From NCBI GenBank assembly GCA_025059875.1, contig JANXCT010000002.1, forward strand, positions 341,180-405,179: 64,000 nucleotides of DNA, given 5' to 3'. The DNA is from Candidatus Kapaibacterium sp. (GTDB lineage Bacteria; Bacteroidota; Ignavibacteria; Kapaibacteriales; HRBIN21). Every line of letters begins with the position of its first letter. Within the stretch, counting starts at the first letter, position 1. This document shows, one piece after another, positions 47,696 through 61,118 of this stretch. Position numbers and translations under genes: made by a program. The notes under the pieces are model-generated. The model saw nothing but the letters and a program-made list of their open reading frames with translations, was not told the origin of the DNA and ran no database searches.

Positions 47696-47982
47696 TAGCC
47701 CTCGTGAGTAGCTGCCAGAGCGAGTGGAGTCCAGAGGCCGAACGCTTCACTCAGACGTATGCAGAGATTCTCGTCGCCCGTGAGCTCTATCCGGACACTG
47801 CTCAGAGTAACCGGCAGGTCCAGGAGCTCTTGCGGCAGCACGGCTACTCAAGCGAGCAAGAGTTCCGGGAAGCCTTCCTCCGGTTTGCCCAGGACCCCGA
47901 GCTCATCCGCCGCATCTTCGATTCTGCCCTCGCCCGCTCGCAGCGAATGCTGGCTGACTCACTCCGCCAGCGCTCCCAATAG
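47635..47982 (+). CDS. small helical lipoprotein
   Basis: This 115-residue protein has a signal peptide and lipobox (LALIALVSSC, Cys27) and a helical mature part (AERFTQTYAEILVARELY, EEFREAFLRFAQDPE). The size and pattern loosely recall the DUF4296 lipoproteins of Bacteroidota, but I cannot confirm this. Its start lies inside the pyrD-like gene (61-base overlap) and its end overlaps the convergent kynurenine monooxygenase gene by 24 bases. Confidence 0.55.
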   Translation: MDGLLSWSKFVRRQCYALALIALVSSCQSEWSPEAERFTQTYAEILVARELYPDTAQSNRQVQELLRQHGYSSEQEFREAFLRFAQDPELIRRIFDSALARSQRMLADSLRQRSQ

Positions 47983-49350
47983 CAGCCTCTCGTCACACGG
48001 CTCCAGCTCCGCTATGAGCTGGTCCATAAGCTGCTGGAACGCAGGATCGTGCCAGTCCTCCTCGGAGTTTGTTCGCTCCATAAGCGCATCCAAGATGCGG
48101 TCCTGTAGGCGCCCCCGCTGTAGCGCTTCCGCGTAAGGCATGTGGCTAAAGGTTACCATCGTGTAGAGCGGCACGAAACGGTCGGGATACCGGTCGGCAA
48201 GGTACTGCTCTAGGCGTTTCCGCAGTAGAAAACGTGGATCGGCAACTTTGTCGCGCATCTCCACGAAGTTCTCCAAAGCTAGCTGCGCAATGGCATCCGC
48301 ATGGGGTTTGCGGAAGCGCTCAAAGGCTCGAAAGGCCGCTGCCCAGTCCGAATCATAGCGCCGGAGGAAGTCCAGTAAGAGCACGCAGTCTTCAAAGCCA
48401 GCGTTCATTCCCTGGCCGTAGAACGGTACGATAGCATGGGCCGCATCCCCTAAGAGGAGTACCTTCCCGCTGTAGCTCCACGGAAAGCAGCGGATAGTCA
48501 GCAGGCTGCCCGTAGGATTGGTGAAGAACTCCTCTGTCAGGGCTGGCATAAGTGGCACAACGTCTGGGAATTGGCTACGGAAGAAGTTCAGCACATCGGC
48601 CTCAGTGCGCAGAGCAGCGAACGAGAGTTCTCCTTCGAGAGGAAAGAAGAGCGTGCAGGTAAAGCTGCAGTCGGGGTTGGGGAGCGCGATGAGCATGAAG
48701 GAATGGCGGGGCCAGATGTGGAGTGCCCGTGGTTCCAGGGCCCACTGGCCTAAAGGTGTCGGCGGAATGGTAAGCTCCTTGTACCCGTAGTCCAAGTACT
48801 CCTGGCAGTACGAAAAGCCCTCCAGACGCTGCAAGCGAGCACGAACAGCGGAGTATGCTCCGTCAACACCAAAAACGACCTCTGCTTCCAATCGCTGCAC
48901 TTCTCCCGAAGGAGTCTCCACGACTACTGCGGGGGTGTCGAGGTCGACATCAACACAGCGGTGTTCGAAGAGGAGCGTAGTCCCTGGCAGTTCCTCTACG
49001 GACGTCAAGAGCAACTCGTTGAGCCGACGGCGGTGGAACGAGTAGATGGCCTGTCCTGGCTTGCCGTAGGGTTGGAATCGCTGCTGGCCATCGAGGTCAT
49101 GGATCATCCGCCCCTCCATTGGAAGCGCGAAGGGTCGGACTCGCTCTTCTAAGCCCGCCAACCGTAATCCACGCCATCCTCGCTCGGAGACGGCCAGGTT
49201 GATGGAACGCCCACCGGAGATATTCGTCCGCCGCATGTCCGGACGGCGCTCCACAAGCGTCACGCGGTGCCCACGCTGCGCCAAGAGGCGAGCCCACAAT
49301 GACCCAACCAACCCAGCTCCAACAACGATCACCGAACGCCGCTGTGCCAT
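47959..49350 (-). CDS. kmo: kynurenine 3-monooxygenase
   Basis: This 463-residue FAD hydroxylase converts kynurenine to 3-hydroxykynurenine. It has the FAD motif VVGAGLVGSLWARLL (residues about 9-23), the second-site GVDGAYSAVR, the FAD-contact GDAAHAIVPFYGQGMNAGFED, and a C-terminal membrane-facing tail (HMPYAEALQRG). The long frame upstream overlaps the lipoprotein gene, and ATG 49350 gives the family start. With 3-HAO (14735-15262) it implies NAD synthesis from tryptophan. Confidence 0.93.
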   Translation of the reverse strand: MAQRRSVIVVGAGLVGSLWARLLAQRGHRVTLVERRPDMRRTNISGGRSINLAVSERGWRGLRLAGLEERVRPFALPMEGRMIHDLDGQQRFQPYGKPGQAIYSFHRRRLNELLLTSVEELPGTTLLFEHRCVDVDLDTPAVVVETPSGEVQRLEAEVVFGVDGAYSAVRARLQRLEGFSYCQEYLDYGYKELTIPPTPLGQWALEPRALHIWPRHSFMLIALPNPDCSFTCTLFFPLEGELSFAALRTEADVLNFFRSQFPDVVPLMPALTEEFFTNPTGSLLTIRCFPWSYSGKVLLLGDAAHAIVPFYGQGMNAGFEDCVLLLDFLRRYDSDWAAAFRAFERFRKPHADAIAQLALENFVEMRDKVADPRFLLRKRLEQYLADRYPDRFVPLYTMVTFSHMPYAEALQRGRLQDRILDALMERTNSEEDWHDPAFQQLMDQLIAELEPCDERLLLGALAE

Positions 49351-49955
49351 TCCTCCTTTACGCCGAGCAAAGGAATGACTTCCTGCAGAGCAAGTCCATG
49401 CAGCCAGACCGTAGAACCAGGCAACGGCTCTATGAGAACCCATTCCGTCAGTGCCCCTTCGACCGGAATCCATCGCTGGGGCAGGCACTCGAAGCGTATC
49501 CAGTAGCCACGCTCTAACTGCACGAGCTCCCACCGATGCCTACCAGCGGGTAACTCCAGCGTGTCCCAAACCGTCGGCGTTCGAAGGGTACAGGTTCCCA
49601 TCGAATCTACCGTTAGCACTACGGGAGCGGTACGTCCCCGCTTCTGCTCTGTCGGCGTACTCCGTAGGAGGAGACGGTAGCCGCGGGTAGAAGAGACGTG
49701 TAGTGTTGCTCGGAACATTGTTAGCCCAGGCACACGTACCCCAATTCCACCACCTGGAGCAACTTGCAGCCCACCATCCTCCGCATACCACCACCTCGGC
49801 TCAGTTCCCCATACGGCGACATCCACAGGCAGTAGGACTCCCTGCTGTTCTGCACGGAACCCCTCAGGAGTCGGCAGGTTGTCAAGCAAGAGCGAGACGG
49901 CTAGCCCGCAGCCTCCGAGACTTGCAGCAAGGATGAGAGCAGCCACCGCCTTCAT
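49329..49955 (-). CDS. lipoprotein of unknown function
   Basis: This 208-residue protein has a lipobox (LILAASLGGC, Cys16) and a mature part that looks like beta strands (LQVAPGGGIGVRVPGLTMFRATLHVSS, ELPAGRHRWELVQLERGYWIRFECLP). No family is recognised. It overlaps the kmo start by 22 bases and the HMT-MTHFR stop by four, within one minus-strand operon. Confidence 0.6.
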   Translation of the reverse strand: MKAVAALILAASLGGCGLAVSLLLDNLPTPEGFRAEQQGVLLPVDVAVWGTEPRWWYAEDGGLQVAPGGGIGVRVPGLTMFRATLHVSSTRGYRLLLRSTPTEQKRGRTAPVVLTVDSMGTCTLRTPTVWDTLELPAGRHRWELVQLERGYWIRFECLPQRWIPVEGALTEWVLIEPLPGSTVWLHGLALQEVIPLLGVKEEWHSGVR

Positions 49956-51814
49956 ATGCCGACTGCCTGCTGTTCTAGCACCGGCAACAGCCCTGCTTGG
50001 CGCAGGACTTCTACTGCGACGTCGTACCGCCGAAATGGGGGCATGAGGTAGACCCCGTCAACCGTATGCCGCACTGCCCGGAGGAATTCCACTGCCAAGG
50101 CTATGCCCTCGCGCATGGCTGCCTCCGGGGTCGTAGCCCGTGCCATCCGCTGCCGGACCCACTGCGGAATGCTGATTCCAGGCACTTCGTAGTGCAGGAA
50201 CTCAGCATGGCGCAAGCTCCGCAGCGGCAGCACGCCTACAAGGACCCGCACCGGCAAATGCGCAATACGGCTCCGGAAGAGCTCCCAGAGCTCCACGTCA
50301 AACACTGGCTGTGTGAAGACCACTTGGGCCCCCTGGGCAACTTTGCGCTCCAGCCGCTCTATCTCCTCCTCCCACTGCTCGGCCACCGGATTACAGGCAC
50401 AGGCGATGCAGAAATTTGCCGCCTGGCCTAGCGGGTTTCCCATGGCATCCACCCCCTCGTTGAGCGCTGCGAGGATGCGGATGAGCCCGATGGAGTCAAC
50501 GTCGAACACTGCTGTCGCGTTTGGGTAATCGCCAATGTGCGGCGGATCGCCGGTTACAGCAAGGATATTGCGCACGCCCAACGCGTGGGCTCCAAGAAGC
50601 TCCGCTTGGAGCGCTACGATGTTGCGATCACGGCAAGCGATGTGCGTGATACACTCTATTCCTGCCTGGGTCTGCACCAAGTAGGCCAAAGCAATCGGGC
50701 TCATCCGGAGCCGTGCCCGAGCTCCGTCGGAGATGTTGACGGCATCAATGCCGTGTCGGCGCAGAAAGCGAGCACCCTCGACCACCGATGCCATTTCCAG
50801 CCCGCGGGGGATATCAAGCTCCACGGTGACAACGAACCGCTTCCCTAGTGCCTGCTGGAAGCGCGTTGGCAGAGGCTTCTCCTGGCTCACAGGGGAAGGC
50901 ATCTCCTGCGGAGCCTCAGCAATCTCCGGCACCGTTGATGGCGGAGCCTGTGCGGCTGCGCGTGCTACTGCCCGAACACACTCCACTGTTGCACCTCCAT
51001 CGACTCCCACGATGCGCACCCCAAGCGCGATGAGTTCCTGCACCTTACGGGCGATGTAGTCGGGATCGGGATCGTAGAACCGCCGCTCGCCGACAATCCG
51101 AGGTACGCTCACATCGGGCAGCGCCGCAACTGGTAGACTCGCCCCGCTGATGAGAGAGCGGGCGATTCCAACCATCCGCTGGGGACCTACTGTCCCCGCA
51201 GCACCGATCGCCGCAACAGGCTGCTGGCTAAGCTCGACGGCAACCTTCCTGGGAAAAGAACCCATCAGCACGGCGCCATCCTCCGGGAAGGCCTTCAGTG
51301 CTACGATCGGCAAGTGAGGACTAACCAACCGCGCTGCCTCGATGGCCAGCAGTAGCTCCCGCAGCTCGATGAATCCCTTGAGCAATAGCAGCTCTGCACC
51401 TCCATCCACCAACGCGACGATCTGTTCCACGAACACCTGCCGCGCCTCTTCGGGCGATAAATTCCCTAGCGGAGCCAAAAACCTCCCTGTCGGTCCAACA
51501 ACGCCAGCAGTGTACGCACGGTTGAGTGCAGCACATCGGGCTAACCATATGCCCGTTCGGTTGAGCTCGTAGACCTTCTCTGCGAGTCCATACCGTTCCA
51601 GAGCAAGCCGATTGGCCCGCAGTGTGTTTGTCTGCACTAGCTCTGCTCCAGCTTCCACGAAGGCCCGGTGGATCTCCTCCACAATGACTGGCTGTCGCAG
51701 CACGTAAAGCTCTGGCGGGAACTCCGTCAACCCCCGCCGCCATAGCTCTGCTTCCAAAGAGCCGTCGCAGACGAGAACACCCTGCCGTAGCCGCTCTGAG
51801 AAGGGCAGCTTCAT
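49952..51814 (-). CDS. MTHFR fused to a degenerate homocysteine methyltransferase domain
   Basis: This 620-residue protein has the YitJ-type layout: a homocysteine S-methyltransferase (HMT) barrel in residues about 1-285, a Pro/Glu-rich linker (286-318) and a methylenetetrahydrofolate reductase (MTHFR) barrel in 319-620, with VTVELDIPRG, VTGDPPHIGDY and TQPVFD. The HMT part keeps AGAELVQTNTLRANR but lacks its three zinc cysteines: the usual NCSxGP is AAGTVGP (205-211) and the usual GGCCGT is VGVDGGAT (269-276). The first loop (DGAMGT) is DGSLEA. The MTHFR half looks active. Start ATG 51814 overlaps the MauE-like stop. Confidence 0.9.
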   Translation of the reverse strand: MKLPFSERLRQGVLVCDGSLEAELWRRGLTEFPPELYVLRQPVIVEEIHRAFVEAGAELVQTNTLRANRLALERYGLAEKVYELNRTGIWLARCAALNRAYTAGVVGPTGRFLAPLGNLSPEEARQVFVEQIVALVDGGAELLLLKGFIELRELLLAIEAARLVSPHLPIVALKAFPEDGAVLMGSFPRKVAVELSQQPVAAIGAAGTVGPQRMVGIARSLISGASLPVAALPDVSVPRIVGERRFYDPDPDYIARKVQELIALGVRIVGVDGGATVECVRAVARAAAQAPPSTVPEIAEAPQEMPSPVSQEKPLPTRFQQALGKRFVVTVELDIPRGLEMASVVEGARFLRRHGIDAVNISDGARARLRMSPIALAYLVQTQAGIECITHIACRDRNIVALQAELLGAHALGVRNILAVTGDPPHIGDYPNATAVFDVDSIGLIRILAALNEGVDAMGNPLGQAANFCIACACNPVAEQWEEEIERLERKVAQGAQVVFTQPVFDVELWELFRSRIAHLPVRVLVGVLPLRSLRHAEFLHYEVPGISIPQWVRQRMARATTPEAAMREGIALAVEFLRAVRHTVDGVYLMPPFRRYDVAVEVLRQAGLLPVLEQQAVGI

Positions 51815-52311
51815 AGCGACCGCCGCAAGTACCGCTCTATGCTCCACCGACGCGGCGTCCAGACGATCAGCCACAGTGATGCAGCCAACAACGCGATATC
51901 TTCCACCACCCGCCCCCACCCGATCCGCTCCGCTGCAGTCTGAGAGAAGCAGCCGCAATGGATGTCCAGACCTCGCACCAAAGCCGAGACCAAAGCCACC
52001 GTGAAGATTCCCAATAGAACGGCACTGACAAGCGCCGCCGCCCGAACCCGTATCCCTGCCACAAGCATTAGCCCCACAAATAGCTCCAACCACGGCAGTA
52101 CGATCGCCGGTAGATTGACCAGCTCGATTGGCAGCAACCGGTAGTTAGCAATCGTGCGTGCAAAGAGTTCGGGGTTTGCGAGCTTATCCGAGGCGGCAAC
52201 CAGGAAGACCATTCCCACCACGACCCTCAAGGCAAACCCCACAAGCTCTCGCAGCCGTATCAACCCAGGAAGCAGACGCGTCACCATGGGAATCCGAGCT
52301 CGCTGTAGCAT
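51811..52311 (-). CDS. MauE/DoxX-like membrane protein
   Basis: This 166-residue protein has four membrane helices. The pattern RVVVGMVFLVAASDKLANPELFARTIANYRLLP is typical of the MauE/DoxX family, and a CGC motif (DIHCGCFS) before the last two helices matches the MauE branch, whose members are linked to disulfide formation or export of redox proteins. A second start at 52287 is possible. It overlaps HMT-MTHFR by four bases and lies 26 bases after the flippase gene. Confidence 0.8.
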   Translation of the reverse strand: MLQRARIPMVTRLLPGLIRLRELVGFALRVVVGMVFLVAASDKLANPELFARTIANYRLLPIELVNLPAIVLPWLELFVGLMLVAGIRVRAAALVSAVLLGIFTVALVSALVRGLDIHCGCFSQTAAERIGWGRVVEDIALLAASLWLIVWTPRRWSIERYLRRSL

Positions 52312-57464: not shown

Positions 57465-57545
57465 CCCCCAACTCTCTGCTCACTGTCCTCGTCGGTGGTG
57501 AGAATCCCCTCTTGAGGTTTGTCCCATAGCCCCCACCTACTCCCT

Positions 57546-60500
57546 ATGAAGATCCCCCGACGCTTTACAGAGGCTGGGCGGTCCCCCTACGACTACTTCA
57601 GCTACGAACGCCGTTCCTCTGTTCTGCGCAACCCTGATGGTACCGTCGTGTTCGAGATGCACAATGTGGAAGTTCCCATCCATTGGTCTCAGGTGGCTAC
57701 AGACATCTTAGCCCAGAAGTACTTCCGTAAGACGGGAGTGCCGCAGTACGACGAGCATGGCAATCCACTCCTGGACAGCGAGGGTAAGCCAATCTTAGGC
57801 CCCGAGCGCTCCATCAAGCAGGTAGTCCACCGACTCGCCGGCTGTTGGCGATGGTGGGGCGAGCAGTATGGCTACTTCGATACACCTGAAGATGCTCAGG
57901 CCTTCTACGACGAGATCGCCTACATGCTGCTTGCCCAGATGGCGGCACCCAATTCCCCACAGTGGTTCAATACAGGGCTCGCCTACGCCTACGGCATCAC
58001 AGGTCGGGGACAAGGGCACTGGTACGTCGACCCTGCTACCGGCCGCCTCCAGCGCTCCAAGGATGCTTATACCCACCCACAGGCCCACGCTTGCTTCATT
58101 CAGTCCATCCAAGACGATTTAGTCAACGAAGGGGGGATCTTCGACCTCCTAACGCGTGAGGCTCGGGTCTTCAAGTACGGCTCTGGCACTGGTACCAACT
58201 TCTCCCCCCTGCGGGCGGCTGGTGAACCACTCTCCGGCGGGGGTGTCTCCTCAGGGCTAATGAGCTTCTTGAAGATCTTCGACCGGGCAGCGGGGGCTAT
58301 CAAGTCGGGTGGTACCACCCGCCGTGCAGCCAAGATGGTGATCGTCGACATTGACCATCCTGACATCGAAGAGTTCATCCTGTGGAAAGCTCGTGAAGAG
58401 GAGAAGGTCGCCTCGCTCGTTACCGGTTCGCGGATCTGCTCCACGTTCCTCCAAGCCATTATGGATGAAGCCGTAGCCCGCGGTACGGATTGGCGGAGCA
58501 ACCCACGCTTGCAGACCCTCATCCGCCGAGCACTCCACCGCGGAGTCCCCCGCGCATACATCCTACGAACGCTCTCCCTCGTTGAGCAAGGCTACACTCG
58601 CCTTGACTTTCCCGTCTTCACCCTGGACTACGAGGGCGAGGCTTACCTAACTGTCAGCGGCCAGAACTCCAACAACTCCGTGCGTGTTCCCAACGAGTTC
58701 ATGCAGGCTGTCCTCCAGGATGGCACGTGGGACTTGCGTTGGCGCACCGACGGACGCGTCTGCCGGACCGTACGAGCCCGTGACCTGTGGAATGCAATCG
58801 CCCTCGCAGCATGGAAGTGCGCCGATCCGGGGCTGCAGTTCGACACGACCATCAACGAATGGCATACCTGCCCCAACTCCGGCCGCATCAACGCCTCCAA
58901 CCCGTGCTCGGAGTACCTCTTCCTAGACGACACGGCCTGTAACCTGGCGAGCCTCAACCTGCTGAAGTTCTACGATGAAGAGACAGGACTCTTCCGCGTT
59001 GAGGACTTTCGCCATGCCGTCCGCCTCTGGACGATCGTCCTAGAGATTTCGGTGCTCATGGCCCAGTATCCCTCCAAGGAGATCGCCCGGAAGAGCTACG
59101 AGTTCCGCACCTTGGGGCTGGGCTATGCTAACCTTGGAGCACTCTTGATGGTCAGCGGTATCCCCTACGATTCTCCCCAAGCCTTCGCTATAGCTGGTGC
59201 AATTACCGCGATAATGACCGGAGAGGCTTATGCCACCTCCGCTGAGATGGCTCGTGAGCTGGGGCCATTCCCTGGATTCGCCGTCAACCGCGACGCGATG
59301 CTCCGTGTTATTCGCAATCACCGCCGAGCAGCGTACAATGCCCCACCTCACGAGTATGAGGGCCTCAGCATCATCCCTATGGGAATCGACCCCAAGTACT
59401 GTCCCGACTACTTGCTCCATGCTGCCCGGGAAGCGTGGGATCGAGCGCTTGCACTCGGAGAACTCTACGGTTACCGCAATGCTCAGGTGACGGTCATTGC
59501 TCCCACGGGGACTATCGGGCTACTCATGGACTGTGACACAACAGGCATCGAGCCCGACTTTGCCCTCGTCAAGTTCAAGAAACTTGCTGGCGGAGGCTAC
59601 CTGAAGATCGTCAACCAAGCTGTCCCGAAAGCGCTTCGCAGACTAGGCTACAGCGAAGACCAGATCCGAGACATCGTGGCATACTGCATCGGTCATGGGT
59701 CGCTCGTGGGCTGCCCCACGATTACTCATGAGCGCCTTCGGCAGAAGGGCTTCACGGACAAGGAAATAGCGCTCGTAGAATCCCTCCTACCGAATGTGTT
59801 CGACATTCGCTTTGCCTTCACGAAGTGGACCCTCGGAGAAGAGTTCTGCCTGCGATTGGGCTTCAGCCGCGAACAGTTAGAGTCGCCGACATTCGACCTA
59901 CTACAGGCTCTCGGCTTTACGCCAGAAGAGATTGAAGCTGCAAATGAGTATGTCTGCGGCACGATGACTGTAGAAGGGGCTCCGCATTTACGCCCCGAGC
60001 ATCTCCCGGTATTTGACTGCGCAAACAAGTGCGGAAAGCGAGGCACACGCTACATCGACTACCTGGCCCACGTACGCATGATGGCTGCTGTCCAGCCGTT
60101 CATCTCCGGCGGAATTTCCAAGACTGTGAATATGCCAATGGAGGCAAGTGTTGCCGACATCGCTGAGGTCTATCTCCAGTCCTGGCGGATGGGGCTGAAG
60201 GCTATCGCGCTCTATCGAGACGGTTCTAAGCTCTCGCAGCCCCTCAGCACAGGTATCGCAGAAGGGCTGGAGGATGAGATCGTCATGCTCGGCGACGAGG
60301 AGACCCTTGACGAGACGAAGGGTCCGAAAGAGGTGCAGGAACGCATCGTAGAACGGATTGTCTACCAGCGTCCCCAACGGCGTCGGCTTCCCAAGAAGCG
60401 CCATGGCTTCGTTCGCGAAGCCTACGTCGGCGGACACAAGGTTTACTTACGCACTGGCGAGTACGAAGACGGCACCCTCGGAGAGATCTTCATCGACATG

Positions 60501-61118
60501 TACAAGGAGGGGGCATCCTTCAAGGGCTTGCTCAACTGCTTCGCTGTTTTAGCTTCGAAGGCACTCCAGTACGGCATTCCGTTGGAAGAGCTGGTGGATA
60601 CCTTTACCTTCACCCGCTTTGAGCCGTCTGGTCCTGTTGAGGGTCACGAAGCGATCAAGTACGCCACCTCCGTACTCGACTACGTCTTCCGCTCTCTGGC
60701 CTACGACTACCTGGGGCGCACTGACTTCGTCCACGTCAAAGCCGTTGACGAAGTCCCGCCCGACACTTCCCATCCCACTACATCGGCCGGGGAAAAATCC
60801 GCATCGCCAACAGCAACTCCTCCTGCACATCCCAGCAGTGGGTCAAGCGGGTCACCCCTACCAAACCCATCTCCGTCCGGGGCATCCCCACAAGTAACTC
60901 GAATCATCGAGTGGGAAAACTCCTCGGCCGCGGAGGAACCAGAACTCGTCACTGCTAACGGGATTGGGATTAACGGTGCCTATGCCCGCCGCGTTGCGGA
61001 AGCAAAAGCCCGAGGCTACACGGGCGAGGTATGCCCTGTCTGCGGCTCGATGCGGATGCGGCAGAGCGGGAGCTGCTCCGTCTGCGAAGACTGTGGCACA
61101 ACCAGCGGCTGCTCGTAA
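57546..61118 (+). CDS. nrdJ: vitamin B12-dependent (class II) ribonucleotide reductase
   Basis: This enzyme of about 1,190 residues reduces ribonucleotides to deoxyribonucleotides using adenosylcobalamin. The barrel contains NSPQWFNTG, the catalytic [11 protein letters not shown] and [23 protein letters not shown]-terminal region (about residue 940 on) holds a TSCPD-like domain ([14 protein letters not shown]). The tail has a redox/zinc motif [25 protein letters not shown] 57546 is chosen over an upstream in-frame start. Near 1,080-1,120 is a low-complexity Ser/Pro-rich linker. Confidence 0.97.

Follow-up and report, generated by a model that had tools for sequence, protein, structure and literature searches.

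The fusion gene and its neighbourhood

The locus described here lies on the minus strand of a 64,000-nucleotide stretch of DNA, which was analysed as a whole and is referred to below as the window. Its central gene encodes a YitJ-type protein in which an N-terminal homocysteine methyltransferase (HMT) domain (PF02574) precedes a C-terminal MTHFR domain (PF02219), the order found in bifunctional HMT/MTHFR proteins. Read along the minus strand, the genes are a flippase, a DoxX/MauE protein, the fusion, a 208-residue ORF and kynurenine 3-monooxygenase (KMO), with ATGA overlaps flanking the fusion:

49952-51814, minus strand: HMT-MTHFR fusion gene, YitJ type, 620 residues, ATG start
50957-51775, minus strand: degenerate HMT (beta-alpha)8 barrel, residues 14-286 (Pfam PF02574, E 3.1e-39)
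50042-50845, minus strand: MTHFR domain, residues 324-591 (Pfam PF02219, E 1.8e-33), catalytic residues conserved
51811-52311, minus strand: gene for a DoxX/MauE-type membrane protein, overlapping the fusion start by ATGA
49329-49955, minus strand: ORF for a putative lipoprotein-like protein of 208 residues, between the fusion and KMO, no Pfam family
47959-49362, minus strand: KMO (phmmer to KMO 6lkd, E 2e-111)

The fusion protein matches NF006396 (YitJ/PRK08645) over residues 5-606 with a score of 611 against a cut-off of 453, so annotation pipelines will name it a bifunctional HMT/MTHFR. In an AlphaFold2 model built from 72 sequences (pLDDT 91, pTM 0.83), the HMT half matches BHMT (1lt8) with Z 34.7 and rmsd 2.4 over 272 residues, and the MTHFR half matches the T. 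thermophilus MTHFR (8eac) with Z 30 and rmsd 2.3; as modelled, the HMT barrel is whole and its fold is fully that of an HMT. The first-pass annotation of this DNA held that the MTHFR half keeps its motifs, and this is borne out: E332, H391, R395, D396, D423 and Q502 are kept in every aligned row, which makes the catalytic Glu, Asp and Gln of MetF (E332, D423 and Q502) invariant. Searches of the window's genome found the fusion to be its sole S-methyl_trans gene and its sole MTHFR gene. The same economy is general, in that all 58 genomes with a match, of 61, have a single MTHFR gene, and in nearly every genome the fusion is that gene. Genomes G012, G020, G027 and G030 (families f8 and f3) are without the fusion and carry stand-alone MetF and MetH, and G035 has a match for neither MTHFR nor the fusion.

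The proximity of KMO had been remarked on as an odd context for methionine synthesis. The KMO gene is genuine and its linkage to the fusion is kept in most of the window's genus; in four other families (f2, f4, f6 and f10) the gene for tryptophan 2,3-dioxygenase (TDO), the first enzyme of KMO's pathway, is found shortly downstream of the fusion, and TDO lies within about 2 kb downstream in G006, G008, G010, G014, G022, G024, G029, G031, G034, G041, G049, G051, G054 and G058. This context is nevertheless uninformative about the HMT domain, because genomes that lack TDO keep the degenerate fusion: G004, G015 and G021 have neither TDO nor the PF04199 formamidase candidate and retain it. Across genomes that candidate tracks TDO with few exceptions (G044 and G056), which, together with the fusions of those TDO-less genomes, rules out a role in the kynurenine pathway, for example with the barrel as the missing formamidase. 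A link through formate is possible, with the formate released from formylkynurenine feeding the folate pool. On the other side, several families have the DoxX/MauE gene conserved upstream of the degenerate fusion; its absence beside the fusion in f7, f13, f19 and the f4 loci checked excludes it as an obligate partner.

Nor is the fusion the sole methionine synthase of the cell, which is ruled out by MetE or MetH elsewhere in the genome. The separate enzyme that the first-pass annotation proposed looking for is present and intact, as MetE in the genome of the window and as MetH in most relatives. The MetE has 775 residues and complete zinc ligands (HMC, Glu and NPDCG; an HxC/E/C site), and MetE is present in 6/6 genomes of the window's genus; searches of the window's genome found neither MetH nor the MetH reactivation domain. 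Other relatives usually have a separate MetH alongside the fusion. In a sample of 20 such relatives, every MetH retains its zinc motifs (NC and GGCCG), and PNAGLP is matched in 17/20. Given these separate intact enzymes, the HMT activity of the fusion would be redundant, and losing it should carry little cost. The redundancy probably predates the loss, because canonical fusions of f3 also co-occur with MetH. The window also contains a B12-dependent ribonucleotide reductase (57519-61118, plus strand; NF005736), and the window's genus, which has MetE and no B12-dependent MetH, seemingly still needs B12 for this reductase.

The former zinc and homocysteine site

Pocket positions are numbered by T. 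maritima MetH (1Q7M/1Q8J), to which the window protein aligns without gaps over residues 109-287. We take Cys207, Cys272 and Cys273 to be the zinc ligands of that enzyme, and Glu146 and Asn234 to be its homocysteine site (structures 1Q8J/3BOL). In the window protein the ligand positions hold G207, D272 and G273, K146 stands in place of the Glu that binds the homocysteine amino group, and D234 in place of Asn234. The codons, placed by alignment, are:

51377-51379, minus strand: K146 (position of Glu146)
51194-51196, minus strand: G207 (position of zinc ligand Cys207)
51113-51115, minus strand: D234 (position of Asn234)
50996-51001, minus strand: D272-G273 (positions of zinc ligands Cys272-Cys273)

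It had been claimed from the window sequence that all three ligand positions (within residues 205-211 and 269-276) and the first substrate loop were altered. Both observations hold, the loop reading DGSLEAEL as against loops of the DGAMGT type in intact relatives; the changes at 146 and 234 come on top of them, and the extent of change in the pocket had been understated.

The replacements are consistent across relatives. Among the 54 dereplicated degenerate rows, position 146 is K in 50, R in 3 and L in 1 (E in all intermediate and canonical rows), position 207 is G in 50 and S in 4 (C in all intact relatives), and position 234 is D in 53 and E in 1, where intermediates have A (once S) and canonical rows N. 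Position 272 is D or E in 43/54 and position 273 is G in 49/54, intact relatives all having CC; position 272 is not fixed, with D, E, S, Y, C, A and F seen. K174 and R213 are present in 54/54. Over the full clade of 67 rows, Cys at 207 or 273 occurs in none, while K or R occupies position 146 in 66/67 and the charge pair K/R146 with D/E234 is likewise found in 66/67.

An artefact of sequencing, assembly or alignment deserves next to no credence as the source of this pattern. Nearly all of the genomes are assemblies of uncultured organisms, but the 67 sequences come from many independent assemblies at about 77% to 49% identity to the window protein, their frames are mostly open, and the alignment is unambiguous. 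None of the alignments restores cysteines at the ligand positions, and close relatives, instead of exposing a sequencing error by intact cysteines, share the same type of change.

Both MetH and MetE combine a (Cys)3Zn site with a carboxylate that forms a salt bridge to the homocysteine amino group (PMC539065). Judged by its residues, the HMT half appears to have lost its zinc site, and homocysteine methyltransferase activity of the fusion is almost surely absent. Continued methylation of homocysteine by the HMT half, without zinc or with another metal, is very improbable: a complete HMT fold and the backbone motifs TVGP and P-x-x-x-x-P are retained, but the zinc ligands are replaced, the Glu that would hold the amino group (PMC539065) has become a Lys, and separate methionine synthases are present.

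Distribution, history and selection

Searches covering 61 relatives, 294 genomes from the class and GTDB contigs yielded 108 fused sequences that were aligned. A canonical pocket (E146, C207, N234, CC) is found in 18 rows, including Zixibacteria and families f3, f11, f20, f24 and f28. An intermediate pocket (E, C, A/S, CC, with new K174 and R213) is found in 19 rows (L115-L133; families f12, f14, f16, f17, f21, f23, f25, f29 and f31), and the degenerate pocket, with majority letters K, G, D, D/E and G, in 67 rows from ten families (f1, which is the window's, f2, f4, f5, f6, f7, f9, f10, f13 and f19). The trait is clade-wide in uncultured bacteria related to Candidatus Kapabacteria, and not a local oddity. 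In the phylum sample, strong relatives outside the class were not found by a search that is blind to independent losses in distant sequences. One contig labelled as a Bradyrhizobiaceae MAG (L042) carries a fusion that nests within the Kapabacteria-related clade, with DoxX adjoining, and is probably misbinned or mislabelled.

In a tree built from MTHFR columns only, which are free of the pocket trait, the degenerate rows form one clade (UFBoot 99, SH-aLRT 93; 43 rows, 24 of them degenerate representatives), and with 67 rows the SH-aLRT for this clade is 92. The pocket loss in the degenerate clade has a single origin, and the loss of Cys207 amounts to two changes on the tree. A second loss of the zinc site is found inside f3 (4 rows: L092, L095, L143 and L144; genera g16 and g28), where Cys207 is replaced by Ser, Asn234 by Ser and Cys273 by Val or Leu, with Glu146 retained (motifs NSTVGP and GGC[VL]GT); it is independent of that in the main clade, within the same order. 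Because the nearest relatives of the degenerate clade are the cysteine-keeping intermediates, Asn234 was probably lost first and the cysteines later, an order that depends on placing the root with the canonical and Zixibacteria rows. The HMT activity of the intermediates, in which PNAG has become PAAG and K174 and R213 have been gained, is likewise questionable.

Over the 23 pairs of degenerate sequences whose dS was usable, dN/dS has a median of about 0.065 in the HMT half and 0.043 in the MTHFR half. On this comparison the HMT domain is maintained under strong purifying selection and is not a decaying remnant; taken with the 67 relatives, it rules out local decay or sequencing error. Loss of catalytic residues combined with purifying selection is one mark of a pseudo-enzyme, a non-catalytic homologue retained for another role, and the HMT half shows both. 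Sites fixed in the degenerate clade and fixed otherwise in the intermediates number 10 in the HMT half and 1 in the MTHFR half (Fisher p 0.001). Seven of the 10 fall within what were the zinc and homocysteine motifs (19, 146, 147, 207, 234, 273 and 275), which leaves 28, 52 and 90, the last a Trp in 54/54. Conversely, 28 formerly fixed positions of the HMT half are now variable, including 21 and 22 of the substrate loop, as against 6 of the MTHFR half. A rebuilt and maintained pocket fits this pattern of sites better than neutral loss.

That residues were newly fixed and not just lost (K146 in 50/54, D234 in 53/54, K174 and R213 in 54/54) could be imagined to reflect a new, zinc-independent (beta-alpha)8 enzyme acting on another substrate, possibly a folate-linked compound or an amino-acid derivative, with Lys146, Lys174, Asp234 and Arg213 placed inside the former active site or close to it. 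The clustering of type II sites in the pocket motifs and the strong purifying selection would agree with this. However, neither a substrate nor a pathway gap was found: the kynurenine link was looked at and the domain is kept in genomes without the pathway, the PF04199 formamidase candidate largely co-occurs with TDO, and the variability of position 272 would be odd for a catalytic residue. We consider a new enzyme unlikely.

A passive relic, on which the MTHFR folds or oligomerises and whose pocket changes were packing repair after zinc loss, without ligand or regulation, is similarly doubtful. It would account for the relaxed homocysteine loop (21, 22 and 65 variable), for the K/R146-D/E234 charge pair, and for a ratio of HMT to MTHFR divergence of 1.28 in the degenerate clade versus 0.78 in its cysteine-keeping sister group. 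But specific charges fixed across ten families exceed the needs of packing, and the similar ratio of canonical relatives (1.16) speaks against any unusual relaxation of the barrel. It is the HMT half of the intermediates that is unusually conserved, at 0.78 of the divergence of their MTHFR half.

Role of the barrel and relation to known systems

The explanation that we favour as probable makes the HMT half a pseudo-homocysteine-methyltransferase that persists as a partner of the MTHFR, in a structural or an allosteric capacity. Methionine synthesis would have passed to a separate enzyme, at first MetH and later, in the window's genus, MetE. After that the fused barrel would have had its zinc and homocysteine site dismantled in the ancestor of the clade, with Gly taking the place of Cys207, Asp-Gly that of Cys272/273, Lys that of Glu146 and Asp that of Asn234. 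The barrel would then have been retained as the non-catalytic partner of the cell's only MTHFR, which it may support or tune allosterically. An internal salt bridge between Lys146 and Asp234 may close the rebuilt pocket, or the pocket may bind a small anionic or zwitterionic regulator; the 146-234 pair, at the former place of zinc and homocysteine, could accordingly be either the bridge or a ligand holder. Weighing against the pseudo-enzyme reading, the conserved pocket charges would suit a new enzyme equally well.

The earlier suggestion that this half has ceased to act as a zinc homocysteine methyltransferase, and might serve as a regulator or a lid, thus gains support from the clade-wide occurrence of the trait and from purifying selection, while the further option of a barrel with another substrate stands as the unlikely rival above. 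More tentatively, the protein may represent a bacterial MTHFR with its own metabolite-sensing domain, in which an HMT was converted to a zinc-free, ligand-binding barrel (the Lys146/Asp234 pocket) for allosteric control of methyl-folate synthesis, with a fold unrelated to that of the eukaryotic SAM domain.

When pathways of these uncultured bacteria are reconstructed, the fusion will be counted as a methionine synthase, which it probably is not. The canonical, intermediate and degenerate relatives, together with the second independent loss, form a natural series in which the disarming and re-use of an enzyme domain can be followed. Regulator binding in the pocket would amount to a type of MTHFR control unknown in bacteria; catalysis there would give a familiar barrel a new activity.

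A zinc-less HMT-MTHFR was not found described in the open-access literature searched; the architecture itself is that of YitJ/PRK08645. With YitJ/PRK08645 the window protein shares architecture, length, an intact MTHFR and homology over residues 5-606, but its HMT domain is without the zinc and homocysteine site and has a conserved Lys/Gly/Asp set instead. The HMT domain of T. maritima MetH (1Q8J/3BOF) has the same fold and the gap-free alignment given above, whereas the fusion lacks the zinc ligands, Glu146 and Asn234 and has no pterin or B12 domain. The regulatory domain of eukaryotic MTHFR (e.g. 6fcx, 8qa6) is C-terminal, binds SAM and is of unrelated fold. The idea of a second domain controlling the MTHFR catalytic barrel is shared, although the candidate in the window is N-terminal and barrel-shaped. 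In the N-terminal barrel of MetE, mutation abolished both the zinc and the homocysteine site, and the barrel survived as a partner of another (PMC539065), as we propose for the HMT half of the fusion. The MetE barrel arose by duplication inside MetE and has the homocysteine barrel as its partner, whereas that of the window sits on an MTHFR, and the replacements differ.
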